DNA from: Synechococcus sp. KORDI-52
Lineage (GTDB): Bacteria > Cyanobacteriota > Cyanobacteriia > PCC-6307 > Cyanobiaceae
Assembly (NCBI RefSeq): GCF_000737595.1
Contig: NZ_CP006271.1
Coordinates: 1,426,001-1,490,000, forward strand
Reading direction: 5' to 3'
DNA: 64,000 bases
Both the position numbers and the translations under genes were made by a program. The first letter of the stretch is position 1; the number at the start of each line of letters is the position of its first letter. Shown here in pieces: positions 18,950 to 38,027 of this stretch. The notes beneath the pieces were generated by a model. It saw nothing but the letters and a program-made list of their open reading frames with translations. It was not told the DNA's origin and made no database searches.

Positions 18950-19300
18950 ATGATTCGCACCACTTTCACCGCCATTGCATCGGCTGCAGCACTCTTCGCT
19001 GTCAGTGATCCCATCGATCCACCAGTGGCTATGGCTGACACCGTGAAGGACTGCCTCTGCATTCTCTCCAGGCATGACGATTCGATCGCTCGGGAGGAGT
19101 TCCGCTGTGACTTCACTCAGACCATGGGTGCCGCTTACGTCGACAGCAAGCGTTGGGCTTTTGTCTTTCCCCACTCCGAACAGGACAAAACCTTCACCCG
19201 GCAGAACACCGAGGACTTCATCCGCTGGACCCGCGAAGGGCAATACGCACTGACCATGTTTCAGAGCGGCGAGAAACCGAACGAGCCAGGCGGGTTCTAA
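18950..19300 (+). CDS. Secreted hypothetical protein, paralogue 1
   Basis: The 116-residue product has a signal-like N-terminus (MIRTTFTAIASAAALFAVSD) and then PPVAMADTVKDCLCILSRHD, EEFRCDFTQ and a C-terminus RQNTEDFIRWTREGQYALTM ending in EPGGF. It is ~70% identical by eye to the protein at 21956-22306. Each lies downstream of a copy of the island element, so the pair came from a segmental duplication. Function unknown. Confidence 0.75.
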   Translation: MIRTTFTAIASAAALFAVSDPIDPPVAMADTVKDCLCILSRHDDSIAREEFRCDFTQTMGAAYVDSKRWAFVFPHSEQDKTFTRQNTEDFIRWTREGQYALTMFQSGEKPNEPGGF

Positions 19301-20975: not shown

Positions 20976-21145
20976 GTGTTCAAGGCTTTTCTGCTGAGCG
21001 AAATGCCACCGAGGTTGCAGCCACCACCCGAGAAAAGTTTTTCGCCCGCATTGACTACACCGCAGTTTTCGACTGGCTGCACGGCAAATTCACAGAGGCC
21101 TACGAAGCCATGTGTCTTGCCAAGGAAGCCGAGAAGAAAGGCTGA
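20948..21145 (+). CDS. Small hypothetical protein, possibly a fragment
   Basis: A GTG start inside the preceding gene would give 65 residues ending EAYEAMCLAKEAEKKG. The second half (REKFFARIDYTAVFDWLHGK) looks coding; the first part overlaps 20802-20975 in another frame, so this may be the tail of a lost longer gene. Its TGA overlaps the next ATG by 1 nt. Confidence 0.4.
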   Translation: MRDLQKRQLGVQGFSAERNATEVAATTREKFFARIDYTAVFDWLHGKFTEAYEAMCLAKEAEKKG

Positions 21146-21789
21146 TGGATAAATGCGCTCTATAACTCGTCCTCGATCACTACAGCGGTGCCGTCAAAAT
21201 CGGCAGTAGCAAGCACCCTCAGATACGGCTAAAGCAGATCGCCGCTCATTAGGCCGTCGGCAGGTTCAGCATCATCCAGACCACTAGGTTCACCACCCGC
21301 GATGCCGCACGCAGCTGGGAGTCAAACTTTCATAAGCGCTACGCCATCCACCGATCACCAGAGCAAGCTGGGCGTGAATGGTTCGACCTTACAGATCAGA
21401 AGATCAAAGGCTTTGTGGAGTGGATGGAGGCATCCACCAGCAAACGAGCCATCAAAGTTTTGACCGTAAAGGCTTCTATTAATAAGAACCCCGATCAACT
21501 TTTGCGTGATCGCTTTGTACGCGGTGCTCTCGCCATGTTTTACTCCATCGGCCTAGTTCCTGGTGTGGCCTGGGCCATGACCAAGAACTGTTATGCCACC
21601 GTGGCGCTCTGGACTGGCTTCGGCGCAGCAGTTGGTATGGGAGCCAAGAAGCAAGAAGAGCAGTCGTCCAGTTACACCCTTGATGGCCAACCGCTCAGTA
21701 ACTACGCACTAAAGCGTGAATACCAACGAGCCAGAGATTGGATGGAACAGCAGCTTCGAGCACGCAGAGGACAACTGGCGCGCCATTGA
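21145..21789 (+). pseudogene. GIY-YIG / T5orf172-like protein with two in-frame stops
   Basis: The frame reads MDKCAL-stop-LVLDHYSGAVKIGSSKHPQI..., a second stop (TAG at 21250), then RFSIIQTTRFTTRDAARSWE and a GREWFDLTDQKI segment. This matches the MUG113/T5orf172 branch of the GIY-YIG superfamily (K-I-G-SS motif, then GREWF). The C-terminal half adds a hydrophobic stretch and a basic tail. The stops are TAA at 21163-21165 and TAG at 21250-21252; the frame is otherwise open for 214 codons, so decay is recent or the stops are suppressed. Confidence 0.7.
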
Positions 21790-21955
21790 GGTTGAAGCCA
21801 AACGACCTAAGTGCTCGAAGCGGCTGGCACCGTTTGAGTGCGACTGGAATGCCTACTTGGAAGCCAACCCGGGCATGAAGGCATGGGCTAAAGCCAACCC
21901 TGGAGCTGCCGAACAGCAACGCATCAAGTTGACTGCCCATCAACGCCTTCCTCCC

Positions 21956-22306
21956 ATGTTCCGCACCACCATCACCGCCATCGCATCTGCTGCTGCCCTG
22001 CTGGCCGTCAGCGAGCCCATGGATCCACCCGTGGCCATGGCCGACACCGTGAAGGACGCGCTCTGCGTGCTCTCCCGCCATGACGATGCCCTACCTCTGG
22101 AGGAGTTCCGCTGTGACTTCACCCAGCTGCGCGGCAACGTCTACGTCGACAGCGTGCGCTGGGCCTTCGCCTTCCCCGACGCTGAGAATGGCACCACCTA
22201 CACACGGCAGAACACCGAGGACTTCAAGCGCTTCACCCGTGAGGGCCAGTACACGCTGACCGTCTTTGAATCCGGCGCCAAGCCCAACGAACCCGGCGGG
22301 TTCTGA
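21956..22306 (+). CDS. Secreted hypothetical protein, paralogue 2
   Basis: The ATG at 21956 gives 116 residues, the same length as its paralogue at 18950, with the same signal region (ITAIASAAALLAVSEPMDPP) and the same EPGGF end. An in-frame extension reaches back to 21716 but overlaps the GIY-YIG-like gene, so the internal ATG is preferred. A terminator follows. Confidence 0.75.
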   Translation: MFRTTITAIASAAALLAVSEPMDPPVAMADTVKDALCVLSRHDDALPLEEFRCDFTQLRGNVYVDSVRWAFAFPDAENGTTYTRQNTEDFKRFTREGQYTLTVFESGAKPNEPGGF

Positions 22307-22321
22307 TCCCACCGCACATAT

Positions 22322-22360
22322 CCCTGGCCACCCTCACGGGGGTGGTGTCCCGGCTTTTTT
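22322..22360 (+). terminator. Rho-independent terminator
   Basis: A CCACCC/GGGTGG stem is followed within nine bases by TTTTTT, just after the secreted protein gene ending at 22306. Confidence 0.65.
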
Positions 22361-22635
22361 ATGCCTGGTGAAGTGATCATCTGACCACTGCCATCGCGTC
22401 ATCTGAACGTCACTGAAGCTCAGCCAGTGTGATGGTGTCAGAGGAGGTTCTGCCGCAATGGAACGTCCATCCAGTGGTTTCTCCAATGACCACTGGGCGC
22501 TGATAACACCACTGACTCCTCTGTCATGAGCGATCCGAGGAGTCAGATCAGCGTTATGTGACGGGTGGTGAGCATTGTCGCCAACCTGACTTCTGCATCG
22601 TTTCTCTTGCCTCTGCTGGTTCATTTTTGGCTATG

Positions 22636-22660
22636 AAAAACCCTGCTCATAAGAGCAGGG
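22636..22660 (-). terminator. Rho-independent terminator of the repeat-protein gene
   Basis: On the minus strand a perfect 8-bp stem (CCCTGCTC / GAGCAGGG, loop TTAT) runs into TTTTT, 27 nt after the stop of the gene at 22687-23418. Confidence 0.85.
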
Positions 22661-22686
22661 TATGCATAAATCAATATCGGACTATG

Positions 22687-23418
22687 TCACGGAATAGCAG
22701 GTGGGTCGAGTCTAATCTTGTCGCATGGAATTCCTTTCACGGTTGCTTGCCACACCTTTTGCACGCTACCAACACCATTGCCGTTCCAGCCATGATTAGG
22801 AACGTAAATTTCCTTTGATCTAGTTTGAATAGATTTTGAAGCTGCCGAATTCCATGAAATGTTGTTTCCCGGATAAGCAAAGTGAGCTTTAGTTTCCCAT
22901 TCCTTTACTCCAGCTTGTCGAGCTTCTCCGCCAGAGCTGTGATTGTATTCAGTTACCGCTACAACTAGGGAATCATCACATTTTAAATTAGTAGGGGTTG
23001 TTAATTTTTGGTTAAAAACCCTGCTTCTGCGGAAATCTTGCCCGCGGTGAGATTGGCTCAATTCTCTTAATTTCGGAATAGTTGTTAATTGCTGTCTCTT
23101 AAGCCTGCTTACGGGGAAAACTTGTCCGCGTTGAGATTGACTCAATGCTCTTAGTTTTGGAATAGTTGTTAATTGTTGTCTCTTAAGCCTGCTTGCGGGG
23201 AAAACTTGTCCGCGTTGAGATTGACTCAATGCTCTTAGTTTTGGAATAGTTGTTAATTGTTGCCTCTTAAACCTGCTTGCGGGGAAAACTTGTCCGCGTT
23301 GAGATTGACTCAATGCTCTTACTTTCGGAGCAGCATGGGCTTCGGCGGTAACGCTTGCCAAAGTAATCATTGGCAAGATGGCAAGTGTTCCAATTTTTTT
23401 GAGGGAGAAATAAGCCAT
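22687..23418 (-). CDS. Secreted protein with four 28-residue repeats
   Basis: The 243-residue product has a signal peptide (LAILPMITLASVTAEAHA), then four tandem 28-residue repeats (residues 32-143; consensus K-[LV]-RALSQSQRGQVFPASR followed by KRQQLTTIP), the last one diverged. The repeats are strongly basic. The C-terminal domain (144-243) holds two Cys and spaced Trp/Ala residues (EARQAGVKEWETKAHFAY, VQKVWQATVKGIPC), a pattern seen in small periplasmic domains. A perfect terminator follows. The gene lies between 18-bp direct repeats. No known family is recognised. Confidence 0.75.
   Translation of the reverse strand: MAYFSLKKIGTLAILPMITLASVTAEAHAAPKVRALSQSQRGQVFPASRFKRQQLTTIPKLRALSQSQRGQVFPASRLKRQQLTTIPKLRALSQSQRGQVFPVSRLKRQQLTTIPKLRELSQSHRGQDFRRSRVFNQKLTTPTNLKCDDSLVVAVTEYNHSSGGEARQAGVKEWETKAHFAYPGNNISWNSAASKSIQTRSKEIYVPNHGWNGNGVGSVQKVWQATVKGIPCDKIRLDPPAIP
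22990..23325 (-). repeat. Four tandem 84-bp coding repeats
   Basis: Four head-to-tail units of 84 bp inside the secreted protein gene. Units 1-3 are nearly identical in DNA; unit 4 has diverged. The near identity implies recent expansion, and the copy number may vary between strains. Confidence 0.9.
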
Positions 23419-23659
23419 GAGATTAGAGGTGAGATTTGGAGGCTTTGGTTGCCCCCTGTGAACTCACCATCTCGGAATTCAGGAGTTGACTCGGTGCCCT
23501 TGCTCAACAGCAGTTGTGATTTTGTTCACACCTAAAAGCCTGATCACCATCTGGGCGGGCATCGCTCCACCAGACTGACTTCTGCATCGTTTCCCATGCC
23601 TAGAGGCGCTTGTTTCGCAGACGCCCTATTAGGCGTTAATGCTTAGTACTTATAAGCAC

Positions 23660-23684
23660 AAAAAAACCTAGGTTTGACCTAGGT
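23660..23684 (-). terminator. Rho-independent terminator
   Basis: On the minus strand ACCTAGG-TCAAA-CCTAGGT runs straight into TTTTTT, a strong terminator ~70 nt downstream of the 37-residue gene at 23756-23869. Confidence 0.8.
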
Positions 23685-23755
23685 CCGTTCAGCGCTTCGT
23701 TTTGAAGTTGGCCTGATCTGTTGGGGGCCGCCGCCAAGCTCGCCCCCTCCCAACC

Positions 23756-23869
23756 TCAGGCTTTCGAAGGCTTGCTGGTCAAAGCTGCGGACATGGCAGT
23801 GGCCAAGAGCATGCAACCAGCAACGGCGAGGAATCCCATCGGTCTGAAGTGACTGAAGGAATCATTCAC
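23756..23869 (-). CDS. Hydrophobic microprotein
   Basis: A GTG start gives 37 residues: a polar N-terminus (NDSFSHFRP), one transmembrane helix (MGFLAVAGCMLLATAMSAAL) and a basic tail (TSKPSKA). A GAGGGG site lies ~10 nt upstream and a terminator follows. The helix has some resemblance to Hli-type helices but lacks the ExxNGR motif. Confidence 0.55.
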   Translation of the reverse strand: MNDSFSHFRPMGFLAVAGCMLLATAMSAALTSKPSKA

Positions 23870-24000
23870 TTTTGACGGCCCCCTCGCCTGTCTCGGTTGC
23901 GACAGAACTGATCAAAACCACATTGGCTGATGGTCAAGACCACCGCCGATTCACCATCGGACATGGCCCCAGTCGTTGATAGGGCTGATTAAACGAAGCG

Positions 24001-24120
24001 GGGAACACCCATGGCAGTCACGGATGAGCCATGACCACCGACACCCGCATTGCTCTGTTCCTGATGGGAGAGCTGGTGGCAGCTCTAATGGCCAGCAACC
24101 TTAATCACCTCAAGCGCTGG
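24001..24120 (+). repeat. Gene-start module A (GGCAGTCACG...ATGAC)
   Basis: First of four partial copies of one sequence block: GGGAACACCCATGGCAGTCA, a short spacer and the start of a gene reading MTTDTRIALFLMGELVAALM. Other copies lie at ~27449, ~31225 and ~34451. Each copy diverges at a different point downstream. Confidence 0.75.
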
Positions 24121-24240
24121 TTGTCTGGTGGGATGCAAGACCTTGGGGGGCAGCGATGGAAGAGCTATTGCTGGACTGACTTGACCCCTTCCTATCCGTG
24201 GAAGAGCAGGACAGGCTGCTGGGTTGGCACCTGGGGGTGA
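24031..24240 (+). CDS. Module A protein, probably 3'-altered
   Basis: A 69-residue frame starting MTTDTRIALFLMGELVAALM, an amphipathic helix shared with the module at 34480. After residue ~36 the two sequences differ completely (here ending WKSRTGCWVGTWG), which suggests that at least one is a truncated or fused copy. Function unknown. Confidence 0.5.
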   Translation: MTTDTRIALFLMGELVAALMASNLNHLKRWLSGGMQDLGGQRWKSYCWTDLTPSYPWKSRTGCWVGTWG

Positions 24241-24317
24241 GGCTCTAGTCACTAAGGGGTAGTCATCAGGGAGCAAGACCCCACGAACGGGTAATTCGAT
24301 TTGAAGGCAGAACAGTG

Positions 24318-24404
24318 ATGGCGAAAGACCTGGCCTTGCTCGCGGGCACCTTCCCCTTAGGGCTTGGAGCCTTGGAAGCAGTCCTTGCTTTCTTTTGCAT
24401 TTAA
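24318..24404 (+). CDS. Hydrophobic microprotein, paralogue of 31486-31644
   Basis: A 28-residue frame (MAKDLALLAGTFPLGLGALE then AVLAFFCI) forms one membrane helix. It resembles the C-terminal half of the protein at 31486-31644 (KKELALLGGTF, GLSALEMVL). AAGG lies upstream. Its stop overlaps the convergent gene by 4 nt. Confidence 0.5.
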   Translation: MAKDLALLAGTFPLGLGALEAVLAFFCI

Positions 24405-24709
24405 TCCACAGGCCAGTGCTTCCACTCAGCGCCATCAGGTATCTCGGGTGACGTTTTCAAGTCCTTGGGTTCATGCCACGACACGCGCCACTGCGGCAGA
24501 CGGAAGTGCACATAGTCGAAGTGTTCGCATCTGATGCCGCCAAGGGGCCCAATAGACCCGTGCCAGCCCGCCATCCACCTGCCGTCGTCAGCTTCCAGTG
24601 GGTTGCCCTTGAACCAGACCCAACACTTCTGTCCGCCTCTTGCCACTCGGTATCCATTGACCAGAGCAGTTTGACTGGTAATCGAAGTCGTACAAGCCAA
24701 GGTTTTCAA
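24401..24709 (-). CDS. Hypothetical protein, Trp-rich
   Basis: A 102-residue product with many Trp (CWVWFKGNPLEADDGRWMAG, WRVSWHEPKD, EWKHWPVD) that looks like a compact beta-rich domain. No signal peptide. No family recognised. Confidence 0.6.
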   Translation of the reverse strand: MKTLACTTSITSQTALVNGYRVARGGQKCWVWFKGNPLEADDGRWMAGWHGSIGPLGGIRCEHFDYVHFRLPQWRVSWHEPKDLKTSPEIPDGAEWKHWPVD

Positions 24710-24799
24710 TTAGTCGTTTTGGTCTTGCACGGCTTCAGGCCCCGATCCTCTATCCCTCATGAATTTATTCAGCCAACTCTTGCTTTTGAGCTGAGTTCT

Positions 24800-24949
24800 T
24801 TAAGCAGCCTCTGCTTTAGTGCTGTCTACGGTTGACTGAGCGTCTTTTAAGACCTGATCAGCCTTTTGCATCAACTTGTAGTAGGTGTCTTTGTCTGTGG
24901 CGGTATACGCAGCTTCCATCAAGAGGTCGTACTTCTCTTCTGGAGACAT
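24800..24949 (-). CDS. Small helical hypothetical protein
   Basis: A 49-residue frame starting MSPEEKYDLLMEAAYTATDK is fully helical and ends Ala/Lys-rich. The frame stays open ~90 nt upstream without a start codon (…LQDYSLNRVWQM), so the original gene may have been longer. Confidence 0.5.
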   Translation of the reverse strand: MSPEEKYDLLMEAAYTATDKDTYYKLMQKADQVLKDAQSTVDSTKAEAA

Positions 24950-25046
24950 CTGCCAGACCCGATTCAGCGAATAATCTTGTAATCCTGAGGTTGCGCAGTA
25001 GCCAAAAATGCTTAATCCCTGCCCACTAAATGTATAAATAGCTACT

Positions 25047-25257
25047 CAGGCAAAACACTGGAAACCTGAAGGCTCTTCAAGCAGCACTCGGCATCCCATC
25101 GGTCAGCAAATTCCAGGCACAGCCCACTCGACACGCAGACAACAAAGCGCTTGTCCCCAAGCTGATGAACTATCGGTGGAGGCCGAGAAATCATGCTGAA
25201 TTCTTGGATCATCTCTCTTCTGCTTTGCCTGATTGTCCGCTAATTCCTCGCTTTTAA
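25047..25257 (+). pseudogene. Coding-like remnant without start codon
   Basis: An open frame (NLKALQAALGIPSVSKFQAQ... ending DCPLIPRF) has protein-like composition but no start codon before the upstream stop. An internal ATG gives only 30 residues. It ends directly before the ATG at 25258. Likely the 3' end of a lost gene. Confidence 0.35.
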
Positions 25258-25485
25258 ATGCATCAAGTGGCACATATTGCCCACGACTGGCGGAAACGTG
25301 ATGAGATGTGTTATCAAAATCTTATGGACACAGAATTACTCAAACAATCCTGGGCCAAGTTGACCCAACGTGGTTACACGCTGAATAGCCCTGCTCCTGA
25401 AGTGGTGAACATCATCACGCCGACGGGTTACTCGACTCAGATTCGTTTAAAGCGACTGCCGAGCTACGCCCGATACGTGCGGTGA
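25258..25485 (+). CDS. Small hypothetical protein
   Basis: A 75-residue product (MHQVAHIAHDWRKRDEMCYQ...) with a helical first half and a C-terminal strand-turn-strand region (VVNIITPTGYSTQIRLKRLP). It starts immediately after the preceding TAA. An internal ATG at residue 17 is possible. Function unknown. Confidence 0.55.
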   Translation: MHQVAHIAHDWRKRDEMCYQNLMDTELLKQSWAKLTQRGYTLNSPAPEVVNIITPTGYSTQIRLKRLPSYARYVR

Positions 25486-25648
25486 TTTCCCACCAATTTC
25501 TGATCTGACGGCTTCGAAATGGTGTGGGGAAGAGTCCTTGCGGTCCTCGATTCCCCTGTTGTTAGGGAGGAGGTCAAGTGGTCCTCGACTCCCAGGTGCA
25601 GAACCCCCTGGATCTGCAGGCTCAAGATGCGCTTGCTGTGTAAGTGGT

Positions 25649-27625: not shown

Positions 27626-27908
27626 CTAGGGAGACGCGGGCGAGGGAACCCGCGAGTTTCATCTCCTAAGACGTGGCAGTGGTGCATGCGCCTAGTCCAT
27701 CCTCACAGCCAACCTGAGAAAATCTGGATAGTCATCAATGCCTAATTAGGTGCATCTGATACCCGGCGAGAGCCCGTCCGTCAGCGAGGATGGATGAGAG
27801 GGCAGAGGTGCCTTCAATGCGTCGTTTGGGGGTGGGCTGAGGGGCCTGCCTCTTTTTTGTTGCCAAGAGAAAAAACGGCTGGAGGCGCTGCCCCCGCCTG
27901 TGCGCTGA

Positions 27909-28073
27909 TCAATAGCTGCTGCGAAAAACAGTTGCGATAACCGAGGCGAAGGTGGACAGGAACAAAGCCGCAAACAGAAATTCCACGAAAATCGGGAGGT
28001 CGTATTCCTGTGATGGCTCAGGAGCGTTTGGTGAAGAGGTAGCGGTTTTGACCTGCCCAATGGATTGAGTCAA
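27909..28073 (-). CDS. Possible membrane microprotein
   Basis: A TTG start gives 54 residues: a polar N-terminus (TQSIGQVKTATSSPNAPEPS) and one C-terminal membrane helix (LFAALFLSTFASVIATVF). No strong ribosome site. It begins at the edge of the inverted repeat at 28078. Confidence 0.4.
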   Translation of the reverse strand: MTQSIGQVKTATSSPNAPEPSQEYDLPIFVEFLFAALFLSTFASVIATVFRSSY

Positions 28074-34450: not shown

Positions 34451-34570
34451 GGAACACTCAAGGCAGTCACGTCTGACCCATGACCCGCGATACCCGCATC
34501 GCCCTGTTCCTGATGGGTGAACTTGTTGAAGCACTACGCGCCAATCCCCCTGACCTGTTCAAGCGTTGGC
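34451..34570 (+). repeat. Gene-start module D
   Basis: Fourth copy of the module: GGGAACACTCAAGGCAGTCA, spacer, then a gene start at 34480 reading MTRDTRIALFLMGELVEALR, followed by ANPPDLFKRW. From about 34562 it runs into the recombinase pseudogene. The 64-residue frame 34480-34674 is therefore a fusion product. Confidence 0.75.
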
Positions 34571-35322
34571 GATGCAATGCCTTGCGCAATGGGAACAGGG
34601 CTCACGGATGCATCAGACGAGCCGTCAGAAGCTCTATGGCTTCCTCAACTCGGCAGTGCAGCGTGGGCATCTAAAGCCCATTTACACCCCCCCCTGCAGC
34701 GCTTCCTGAGGTGCTGGAGCCCAAGCGCATTGGCTACCCCCTCAGCGATGCACAAATCCTGCAGCTGCTGGACAACCTGCCTGAAGGTGACGTGCACGAC
34801 CGCAGGCGATTTGCCATTCAGTTGTATGCCGTCTTCGGCCTCCGCCCTGAGGAGTTGCGCCACCTCCGCATCAAGGACGGGGCCGGTGGGGCAGAACTCT
34901 GCACGATTTATCAGAAGTCGATGGGGGACACGAAGGGAGCCAAGACAGAACAGCGGCGGCTGCACCCCCTACTGCTGCGTGATGCCGATGGTGTCGCCAT
35001 TGATTGGAGGCTCCAGGCACGCTTGCAGGTGGGCGAACAACTACCGCCTTTGAACCGTGAGGGTGATGGTGGCCAGGCGCTGAATCAATACCTGCGCCGG
35101 CGCAAGGTGTGGATGGCGCTGAAGACTGAAGCCGAGCACCAGGGTGAGCAGCTCACCCCCTATTCATTCCGCCATCGGTACGCCAAGGGGATGCACGCCG
35201 CGAACATCCCCATCGCCAACATCTGCGAGGCCATGGGCCACACCATCGAGGTGCATCTGAAGAGCTACGCACGGTTCAAGCCAAATGCGACGGCAGACCT
35301 CGTGGCAGCGGTCAACGTTTGA
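34562..35322 (+). pseudogene. Tyrosine recombinase (phage-type integrase), frameshifted
   Basis: The first part (34563-34690) reads AMQCLAQWEQGSRMHQTSRQ then KLYGFLNSAVQRGHLKPIY, a core-binding-domain fragment. A run of eight C at ~34687 shifts the frame, and the catalytic part continues from 34711 (203 residues): GLRPEELRHLRI (first Arg), YSFRHRYAKG (Arg and His of the box; the first His is Tyr), MGHTIEVHLKSYARF (His and nucleophilic Tyr). The 5' end is replaced by module D. The catalytic part alone is unlikely to work. Confidence 0.75.
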
Positions 35323-35470
35323 CTGATTAGCCAGACTGCGCGCCATGCCGAATAAGGACCACACCGTTAATCCGCCACTGCAAAACATGCGTTTTCAGTG
35401 CAACTGGCTGCTCACAGCGAATGGGTGGGTCTTCGAACCCATTTGTTGGGATCAATAGAGACTCCACGCC

Positions 35471-35680
35471 ATGGCGAACAAGGGTCGCAGCTTTCACGAG
35501 GCGCCAGAAAAGGCAGGTTGTGAAGGGTGGCTCCACTCCGAACAGCAGCTGTTAACCATTTGGAACCGGTTCTCAGATGGACGTGTAGCTCAGTACACAG
35601 TTTGTGTTGTTGAGTTCAGCACATTGATCCCATTGGACCACGGCAATTTAGAAATTCGTGCATGGTTGTCTGGACTTTAG
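35471..35680 (+). CDS. Small hypothetical protein
   Basis: A 69-residue product (MANKGRSFHEAPEKAGCEGW...) with a mixed alpha/beta pattern. It ends 7 nt before the next start, so it may form an operon with the two following small genes. Function unknown. Confidence 0.5.
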   Translation: MANKGRSFHEAPEKAGCEGWLHSEQQLLTIWNRFSDGRVAQYTVCVVEFSTLIPLDHGNLEIRAWLSGL

Positions 35681-35687
35681 CCGTAAT

Positions 35688-35876
35688 ATGGTGACTCCAT
35701 ATACCTGGTCAGAAAATTATCAAGCGGACATCGCAATGCGTCAGCTTGAGGATTGTGGTGTTCCTTGCGAGTGTCCCCGTTGCGTCTCTGCGTATTACCG
35801 ATTGCAGAGGATTCAGCAAGAAAAGGAACAACGTGATCTTCGCAGGCCATCGCGGGACCATGTCCTTTACGACTAG
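35688..35876 (+). CDS. Small protein with CxCxxC motif
   Basis: The ATG at 35688 gives 62 residues (MVTPYTWSENYQADIAMRQL...) with CGVPCECPRC in the middle and a charged helix after it. The cysteines could bind zinc. It is followed 8 nt later by another small gene. Confidence 0.55.
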   Translation: MVTPYTWSENYQADIAMRQLEDCGVPCECPRCVSAYYRLQRIQQEKEQRDLRRPSRDHVLYD

Positions 35877-35884
35877 GGGTTGTT

Positions 35885-36064
35885 ATGGAATATTCCTACC
35901 GCGACTGCCTAAGTGAAGAGATTGAGATTCTTCAATTGATGCTTTATAGAGATGAGTTTTTAGGCCAAGATCCAAAGGCTTGCAAGCATTCAGGCCCTAT
36001 CTTGATCAAAATAGCCGAGAATATTAAAGAGCTATCTGATCTTGATGATCATTCGGCTGCTTAG
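35885..36064 (+). CDS. Small helical hypothetical protein
   Basis: A 59-residue frame (MEYSYRDCLSEEIEILQLML...) with an AGGGG site 5 nt upstream. It is acidic and helical and follows the CxCxxC gene by 8 nt, so it is probably in the same operon. Confidence 0.6.
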   Translation: MEYSYRDCLSEEIEILQLMLYRDEFLGQDPKACKHSGPILIKIAENIKELSDLDDHSAA

Positions 36065-36230
36065 CGATTGGCTTAATTTCACGCCGGATAGAATTTGTCG
36101 ACATTGATTCTTTGCTGGAGAGGCTGCGTTGCATCTCCAATTGTTGGCTTGACAGCCTTTCCCTTCGCAAAGCCGTGACCGGATTAGTACGTCAAGTCAA
36201 GACTGAGAGTCAGCCTTGTACTGCCAGCGC

Positions 36231-36359
36231 TCAACGCTCAAGTCGCCTTAATTCCATGATTTCCAGCCGTCTTCTGTTGGTTTCAATTTCAGCCTCACGT
36301 GCCAAATGTCCAAGTTGAGCATTTGTGCGCTTTTGATGTCGTGAAGATACAAAAGACAT
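36231..36359 (-). CDS. Basic microprotein
   Basis: A 42-residue frame (MSFVSSRHQKRTNAQLGHLA...) ending in a charged helix (NRRRLEIMELRRLER). No ribosome site is seen. Weak support from composition only. Confidence 0.35.
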   Translation of the reverse strand: MSFVSSRHQKRTNAQLGHLAREAEIETNRRRLEIMELRRLER

Positions 36360-36574
36360 GGGGGTATGGAATTCGATGCGTTGAAGTTAAAAGCCACTGT
36401 AAATTGATGTGTGAAAGCGATACCCAGCTACACCAATTCATGTAGTTAAGTAACGCCTTGTGCTGTATGCAGGGGCTATGGACTGAGCTGCAGTTGAGGA
36501 CGCTGCGCAACATGATTGAGCTGGTTGAGGACAGCTAACGCCTAGTGCGTTCAACATTCAGCGCAAAGAGGGCG

Positions 36575-36856
36575 TTAAGGGTGCGTTGATGCTCCAACAC
36601 CAAACCCGGGAGAGTTGCGACAGAAGTCACTGAGTCTCGCCTTGTGTCTAAAGCATCCTTTTTTGACGAAGGCCGTCTGCCCTACATCGCTGAACTGGCA
36701 GCTCTCTCTGCGTAGGTCTTCTTCAAGCGTTTGTAGTTTTGCGGTCAAGGCTGCCACTTTCGCGCTGTGACCAATGGAGGAGAAATAGGCAAGCCGATAA
36801 GCCTCCCACCGAAGACCGAACTCCAGCCTTTCAATTGGAGTTTTGGCTGCTCGCAT
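36575..36856 (-). CDS. Hypothetical protein
   Basis: A 93-residue product starting MRAAKTPIERLEFGLRWEAY, with a helical first half (KVAALTAKLQTLEEDLRRES) and two Cys later. A strong AAGGAG site lies 4-5 nt upstream of the ATG. Function unknown. Confidence 0.6.
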   Translation of the reverse strand: MRAAKTPIERLEFGLRWEAYRLAYFSSIGHSAKVAALTAKLQTLEEDLRRESCQFSDVGQTAFVKKGCFRHKARLSDFCRNSPGFGVGASTHP

Positions 36857-37245
36857 CTCACTCCTTATAAATAGAGTAAAAAGCTAAAAAGAAAAAATTG
36901 GTCGACGTGGGGAATGTATCTGCGAGCGTTTAGTGATTATCGCCCCGCCCGCCAGTCCCTCAGACCCGCCGGCGAATGCTCAGGCACAACGCCGTTGCGG
37001 CCTGTGACAAGATGCCAAAAACAGCTGGGCTGCGTTGCAGGGCATCAGTTCGTGAAGAGCAATCTTTTTTCGCTAAGACAGACAGACCTAGCAGTTTGCC
37101 GCTGACTTGGGTCCGCGTCCCGCCCGGAGCCCTCCAGAAAGGGACGCACACCAAATACGCCAGTAACACCAGTCGATTCAGCGTGAATTGATACCGACCA
37201 AGGCATTTTGTCACCAGCAGAAAAAAAGGGGGGCAGAGTGTCGTC
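36857..37245. other. Stretch without a convincing gene
   Basis: About 390 nt between two small genes. Overlapping frames on both strands have poor composition. No repeat or hairpin stands out. Confidence 0.35.
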
Positions 37246-37452
37246 ATGAGCAACACCAATGATCTGCACGCATGGGATGAGGGCCTTCGTCGGCCAATGG
37301 GGGGTGACCCTCTGCAAGAACCCGTCATGGCGGCGATCTTCGGCTACAGGTTCAACGACGAGTTATGGCGACTTAATGACCAGGGCTATCCAGAACCTTT
37401 GTTAGAACCCATGCTCGGCCGGTGGGAACAGCTGCACGATCCCGAGGGTTGA
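37246..37452 (+). CDS. Small hypothetical protein
   Basis: A 68-residue product (MSNTNDLHAWDEGLRRPMGG...) ending WEQLHDPEG, with FGYRFNDELWRLNDQGYPEP in the middle. No signal or membrane segment. It is the last plausible gene of the island before tRNA-Pro; the next ~430 nt hold none that I can support. Confidence 0.55.
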   Translation: MSNTNDLHAWDEGLRRPMGGDPLQEPVMAAIFGYRFNDELWRLNDQGYPEPLLEPMLGRWEQLHDPEG

Positions 37453-37918: not shown

Positions 37919-37953
37919 GGCACGAGCGGTTTGGGGAATCGCTCAGATTGCAG

Positions 37954-38027
37954 TCGGGGAGACAGGATTCGAACCTGCGGCATCTTGCTCCCAAAGCAAG
38001 CGCGCTACCAAACTGCGCCACTCCCCG
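37954..38027 (-). tRNA. tRNA-Pro (anticodon TGG)
   Basis: The minus strand folds as a cloverleaf: acceptor CGGGGAG / CTCCCCG, D-arm with AGTTTGGTAGC, anticodon stem CTTGC / GCAAG with loop TTTGGGA (anticodon TGG), and T-arm with GGTTCGAATCC. The discriminator base is A and CCA is not encoded. Its 3' end faces the island, a classic integration orientation. Confidence 0.95.

Follow-up and report, generated by a model that had tools for sequence, protein, structure and literature searches.

The locus described here lies in the genome of Synechococcus sp. KORDI-52 (G000, a single contig of 2,572,069 bases), within a stretch of 64,000 nucleotides (G000:C1:1426001-1490000, hereafter the window) that was analysed as a whole. 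On the minus strand, a gene at 22687–23418, an open reading frame (ORF), encodes a 243-residue protein with a signal-peptide-like N-terminus, four units of 28 residues and a C-terminal domain with two cysteines. The four 84-nt units (22993–23328, minus strand; residues 31–142) comprise three near-identical units, which differ pairwise at 2, 4 and 6 of 84 nt, and a divergent fourth that differs from them at 19–21 positions. The repeat region has a pI of 12.0 and the protein from residue 31 onward a pI of 11.4. Both cysteines, the only two of the protein, are located C-terminal to the repeats, in the domain spanning residues 143–243 (22690–22992, minus strand). The GC content of the gene is 0.433. 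An earlier note on this DNA had described four basic 28-residue repeats followed by a Cys-bearing domain, and this layout was confirmed here.

The same note had regarded the protein as novel, which our searches bore out. Comparison with family libraries gave nothing convincing, the best E values being 0.13 for Pfam and 0.015 for NCBIfam; the best PHROGs match (E 0.0058) covered 16 residues, and the best solved structure reached an E value of 0.67. A protein search of 400 genomes of the family matched eight, and the convincing matches were the source genome itself, G120 and G262, which also hold the only convincing relatives of the C-terminal domain, a domain without a Pfam match. Weak matches in G285, G299, G385, G205 and G307 (E 0.003–0.006) were dropped as unconvincing, as was another weak match in G238 (E 0.0027). 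The protein had no match in the 33 other genomes of the genus, no relatives were found in viral contigs or in phage and plasmid records, and a three-row profile of the C-terminal domain, searched against 388 genomes of the class, matched in the source genome alone. The idea that this domain is a widespread small secreted one was tried against two-Cys proteins with the same type of promoter (see below) and was not supported, either by profile comparison (1% probability, E 0.054) or by BLASTP (E 0.17). The predicted structure was useless as a model (mean pLDDT 38.4). Among the titles and abstract openings listed in literature searches, none dealt with the repeat-protein gene, with its promoter segment or with the dispersed 176-nt element described below. 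The repeat protein is new, an orphan of very rare occurrence; as a type, exported orphans encoded in picocyanobacterial islands are already known.

The N-terminus passed a crude script criterion for a Sec export signal, one that 25% of random positions pass too. The product is probably a small, strongly basic, exported protein, and it would probably act outside the cell, as a cationic protein of the surface or matrix or as one used in antagonism. It resembles secreted repeat proteins of variable unit number in its signal-like N-terminus, its near-identical tandem units and the different number of units in a relative, but differs from them in that the 243-residue protein matches no family.

The two convincing relatives define a unit larger than the gene. 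G120, a genome of another genus in the same family, carries a full counterpart with both unit ends, a single repeat unit and an in-frame stop, whereas the G262 copy is truncated by a contig end and shares the terminator-side end with the window. Blastn aligned the window with G120 in three pieces (22629–22682, 22987–23077 and 23250–23530) and with G262 over 22629–22859, where the contig ends. The C-terminal part could not be aligned with that of G120 as DNA and was 32% identical as protein. The ends of the unit, at 22629–23530 (minus strand), were observed from both sides. From inside, the G120 matches stop at 22629 and 23530, and the G262 match at 22629; from outside, alignments of flanking sequence to G027 and, by eye, to G005 and G009 reach 23532–23535. 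The boundaries of a shared unit were in this way fixed from two directions. The unit comprises a CRP-like site, a promoter with 5′ UTR, the gene and a terminator-like hairpin with a T run (~22640–22661, minus strand), which is matched in both G120 and G262. The earlier note had likewise given the gene its own terminator, and a 42-nt segment that includes the hairpin has a folding energy of −19.9 kcal/mol. These alignments support the view that promoter, gene and terminator would travel together as one unit.

Three near-identical repeats had been taken as a hint of rapid copy-number change, and a comparison of repeat numbers between strains had been proposed. The number indeed differs, with four units in the source genome and one in G120. 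The G120 unit matches units 1 and 4 equally well (69/84 each), its beginning being like unit 1 and its end like unit 4; expansion from one unit and contraction to one unit fit these data equally. The gene may be dispensable, because the G120 frame carries an in-frame stop.

At its promoter-side end, the unit begins with a perfect CRP-like palindrome, TGTGA-N6-TCACA (23515–23530), which lies 96 bp from the start codon and has no second perfect example in the window. The site is kept in the G120 counterpart and in other promoters of the same type. The source genome holds eight perfect sites against none for the backwards control pattern and 1.7 expected from the base composition of the window (P 3.5e-4), and the 34 genomes of the genus hold 107 against 16 for the control. 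Their distribution is uneven, with 22, 16, 12, 8 and 8 sites in five genomes and none in eleven, three of which are less than 90% complete. The abundance of the sites in some genomes and their absence from these eleven suggest that a CRP regulon was gained or lost among members of the genus. Ten cNMP-binding matches were detected in the source genome, one of which (L109) reads as a Crp-like regulator; its helix-turn-helix contains RETASR, which we take to mark Crp-type recognition. The repeat-protein gene is probably under putative CRP control. Tested as general marks of exported proteins, the CRP-like sites were not established as such: at 51 distinct sites out of the 107 counted, 18 (repeat-protein gene included) stood ahead of signal-peptide genes; for random positions the figure was 239 of 960 (P 0.06).

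The palindrome is identical to the cyanobacterial CRP consensus of the SyCRP1 type, TGTGAN6TCACA, and predictions of CRP sites, many of them with hypothetical targets, cover 12 cyanobacterial genomes, among which are marine Synechococcus CC9311 and CC9605 (PMC2633013). In contrast to the likeness of the sites, neither the repeat-protein gene nor its promoter segment is among the targets described in the portion of that report considered here (PMC2633013).

The promoter segment (23451–23530, minus strand) is common to other genes in two other genera, as found by DNA search. Outside the window, one of these genera has it in four genomes and the other in one, with copies in at least G074 (two), G120 (one besides the counterpart), G262, G404 and G063. 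Seven longer matches, the G120 counterpart included, all end at the position of 23530, that is, at the CRP-like site. In 380 genomes, matches were found in at least 13, those in G033, G001, G010, G003, G028, G230 and G332 being only 21–28 bp long; these counts are lower bounds, with up to two candidates per genome for the promoter segment and up to nine in the DNA search with flanks and the dispersed element. Behind the segment, G074 has a two-Cys, signal-peptide-like protein of 110 residues, of which G120 has a broken relative; elsewhere the segment is followed by Pro-rich proteins (G074 and G262), a 321-residue ORF (G404) and a 91-residue peptide (G063) whose start we take to be GG-leader-like. 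Neither the two-Cys protein nor the 91-residue peptide had a Pfam or NCBIfam match. This points to a CRP-linked promoter common to different genes in relatives of marine Synechococcus. Loci with this segment include L161, L172, L162, L173, L163 and L164.

Gene and terminator are framed by an exact 18-bp direct repeat (22586–22603 and 23575–23592, zero mismatches), which the earlier note had read as the boundary of a mobile or swappable cassette. The framing itself was verified and lies above chance: at up to three mismatches, the window holds two copies, whereas 100 shuffles averaged 0.07 and never reached two. At 88% identity the repeat extends to 32 nt (22581–22612 and 23570–23601). At up to two mismatches, the whole genome contains two copies, both at this locus, and one of the backwards control pattern. 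The 18-mers stand 25 and 44 bp beyond the unit ends. Near the G120 counterpart, no sequence comes closer to the 18-mer than five mismatches, which is at chance level, and the initial 900 bases of the G262 contig offer nothing better than seven.

The origin of the repeats emerged from the flanks. Blastn with the right flank identified three loci, L013 and L004 in G001 and L027 in G014. L013 and L027 lie inside 90-residue ORFs matching DUF1651 (PF07864; E 2.7e-6 and 1.1e-12), and L004 holds no 90-residue DUF1651 ORF. DUF1651 genes occur in 27 of 33 genomes of the genus, a count that includes the source genome, and a single genome can hold as many as 18 matches. The left 18-mer lies within a DUF1651 tail with its stop (22554–22613, minus strand; ...SGWRQCSPPVT-stop), recognized by protein and DNA tail models, and the left repeat copy translates on the minus strand as EARETMQKSGWRQCSPPVT-stop. 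The right 18-mer lies within a second tail (23532–23625, minus strand; ...RCPPRW-stop), which includes small indels and some 3′ flank and was recognized by the DNA model and by comparison with G027; here the copy reads AWETMQKSVWW... just past a stop and continues as ERCPPRW-stop in another frame.

A protein model built from segments of 18 relatives gave E values of 2.1e-6 for the left tail and 3.5 for the right one. With a DNA model of 11 tails, the left tail scored 2.8e-16 over 22477–22613, partly owing to the downstream element, and the right tail 1.5e-6; the same model revealed further relics in the window at 36922–37132 (E 1.2e-27) and 27873–27919 (E 4.5e-6). For the right tail, a DUF1651 gene of G027 (RCPPKW-stop) aligned by its 3′ end at 77% over 79 columns (window 23532–23608, E 7e-11), in an alignment that passes the stop codon, runs slightly further and on its other side adjoins the unit end at 23530. 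The left flank aligned at 85% identity over 230 columns with G029, whose DUF1651 gene has an open frame, complete in the model, and ends CSPPVR, as compared with CSPPVT here. Both frames in the window are incomplete, the N-terminal parts being absent on either side and the right frame also carrying a stop ahead of its tail.

Over a core of 33 nt, the left and right tails agree at 28 positions; 14 other members, a set that excluded G027, reach at most 26 with the left tail and at most 27 with the right one. Because other members come this close to 28, the exact 18-mer largely reflects family conservation. We therefore read the 18-bp repeats as a conserved DUF1651 tail motif common to two gene ends of different subtype. 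Against this reading count the failure of the right tail in the protein model and the marginally closest match of the two tails to each other in the core. The 3′ ends of DUF1651 genes of marine picocyanobacteria contain both direct repeats; what differs at this locus is that only relics are present and that the repeat protein itself has no DUF1651 match.

These observations bear on two proposals for how the gene came to lie between the repeats. In the first, the one of the earlier note, recombination between the 18–32-bp repeats inserts or deletes the gene, which would agree with an exact 18-mer that has only two copies in the genome, with tails marginally closest to each other among the compared members and with related loci that hold one DUF1651 relic and no unit. 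The shared unit, however, ends 25 and 44 bp inside the 18-mers, its G120 counterpart lacks them, and the tails belong to different DUF1651 subtypes, so that we consider this exchange very unlikely. The part of the cassette idea concerning mobility was supported, in that promoter, gene and terminator appear to be transferred together and a neighbouring site without the unit exists in G005, G009 and G012; the part assigning the boundaries to the 18-mers was not, as they lie inside two DUF1651 gene ends and outside the unit. The note had also said that the same gene without the repeats would weaken the idea, and the one full counterpart, in G120, is such a case. In the second proposal, a transposon-like insertion into a single DUF1651 gene produced a long target-site duplication, leaving a tail on either side. 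The presence of a DUF1651 tail on both flanks and the 28 of 33 shared core positions would fit, but each tail passes through its own stop codon and the two end differently (CSPPVT versus CPPRW), which counts strongly and therefore argues for two different DUF1651 genes rather than one duplicated target. Moreover, none of the seven inverted-repeat pairs in 21500–25000 sits at the unit ends, the two overlapping plus-strand ORFs had no Pfam match, and the G120 copy is without the duplicated 18-mer. Such an insertion is hardly credible. We instead favour an arrival of the unit between two decayed DUF1651 gene ends.

Sites without the unit were sought through the adjoining conserved segment, block B (23620–23911, minus strand), which contains a terminator-like hairpin and has at least one further copy in the source genome and copies at five loci of the genus. 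In G005, G009 and G012, a DUF1651 relic comes after block B at this same junction (E 3e-16, 4.4e-9 and 3.6e-8 with the tail model), and these genomes have neither the repeat protein nor the unit. The suggested check for empty sites in relatives was thus answered in part: the relic junction occurs without the unit at three of six other block-B loci, and no exact empty site was found. At the remaining block-B loci, those of G033 and G031 and the second copy of the source genome, no adjacent DUF1651 relic was detected. In G005 and G009, a different segment follows the relic. The locus shows how an apparent cassette boundary can come from gene ends that are conserved across a multicopy family of island genes. 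Within block B, a short ORF (23755–23839, minus strand) reads MGFLAVAGCMLLATAMSAALTSKPSKA by eye and has matches of 81–88% DNA identity in several genomes of the genus. A further segment, 23997–24087, has additional copies in the source genome and many relatives, around a short ORF, MTTDTRIALFLMGELVAAL....

The surroundings have the features of a genomic island. GC content is 0.466–0.574 in all sixteen 2-kb bins of 6–38 kb and 0.61–0.68 in 12 of the 16 other bins. An ORF for a tyrosine recombinase (34711–35322, plus strand; Phage_integrase, PF00589, E 7.3e-10) has a frame interrupted upstream, with one stop within 34564–35322, and a tRNA-Pro (TGG) identified by Rfam/tRNA search lies near the island edge (37953–38027, minus strand). 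A tRNA-type island is suggested because the interrupted Phage_integrase ORF and the tRNA-Pro are both present. In G029, a 390-residue relative of the recombinase lies near two 41–44-bp copies of the tRNA-Pro 3′ end. No second tRNA-Pro end that could serve as an attachment repeat was found within the window, where the best other match is 11 bp. We would liken the island to tycheposon-like, tRNA-anchored elements with tyrosine recombinases, with which it shares the tRNA-Pro, the tyrosine recombinase and a low-GC cargo region, and from which it differs in having no second tRNA-Pro end in the window and an interrupted recombinase frame.

Other features were seen in the island. Just after the recombinase, a second DUF1651 gene is split into 35471–35620 and 36922–37060 by ~1.3 kb of other sequence, and no direct-repeat pair closely framing it was found in 35350–37300. 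Two related plus-strand ORFs, at 18950–19300 and 21716–22306, encode small signal-peptide-like proteins that end in KPNEPGGF and have no Pfam match, and segments near 17.7–18.2 and 20.1–20.6 kb match the same relatives as each other; these ORFs and segments may form a duplicated block. Accepted Rfam matches in the window were three, two tRNAs and a glutamine-II riboswitch, and in 21000–25500 there were three weak matches (E 0.19–1.1), all below gathering scores.

Taken together, the locus is in our view likely to be a laterally acquired, CRP-controlled unit for an exported basic repeat protein, placed between two decayed DUF1651 gene ends in an island. The unit at 22629–23530 would have entered as cargo of the island and come to rest with the 3′ end of a decayed DUF1651 gene on either side, for which ordinary recombination within a hypervariable island next to a tRNA-Pro would suffice. 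A CRP-family regulator would then switch the unit on, and the strongly basic protein would be exported by the Sec pathway and act outside the cell with its two-Cys C-terminal domain. Judged by its patchy presence and GC content, an origin from another lineage is most likely. Alternatively, an old gene of the lineage could have been lost in nearly all relatives with its CRP control kept, involving no recent acquisition. Such a history is compatible with the counterparts that a different genus of this family has, promoter and terminator being the same there; absence from the 33 other genomes of the genus, convincing presence in only 3 of 400 family genomes, low GC and the island setting speak against it and make it unlikely.

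Building on lateral acquisition of a CRP-controlled unit, a bolder picture is conceivable, which we regard as quite unlikely. Here a portable CRP-driven promoter would be passed among picocyanobacterial islands with changing cargo, the basic repeat protein, the two-Cys small protein, the GG-leader-like peptide and the Pro-rich proteins, using DUF1651 3′ ends as landing places. The near-identical units would then make up a precursor with several copies of a cationic peptide that is secreted, its dose changing with the unit number. A dibasic KRQQ motif is present in three of the repeat units.

Directly downstream of the left DUF1651 tail, DNA searches revealed a dispersed element of ~176 nt with hairpins (about 22370–22556, minus strand), a candidate for a structured RNA or a repeat. 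The searched loci, many of which had been chosen for carrying it, contained 65 long copies among 70 matches (L052, L054, L057, L059 and L051 among the loci). No Rfam match was found for the element. In 44 copies, with the structure taken from the window copy, 86.7% of cells pair, against 25.6–43.9% when the structure is slid, and 44 cells are changed on both sides, against 20.8 in shuffles (0/500). Counting against a structured RNA, there are 15 pair types, compared with 19.4 in shuffles, a slide of −3 does as well in covariation as the unslid structure (0.101 versus 0.098), and the RNAalifold consensus has only 10 pairs and a covariation term of −0.11. Copies are often clustered in the same orientation with gaps of 19–42 bp. 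A copy is also present in a compact tRNA-Pro-linked element of G029 (L043, 6016–9400), together with two tRNA 3′ ends, the 390-residue recombinase and a DUF1651 gene.
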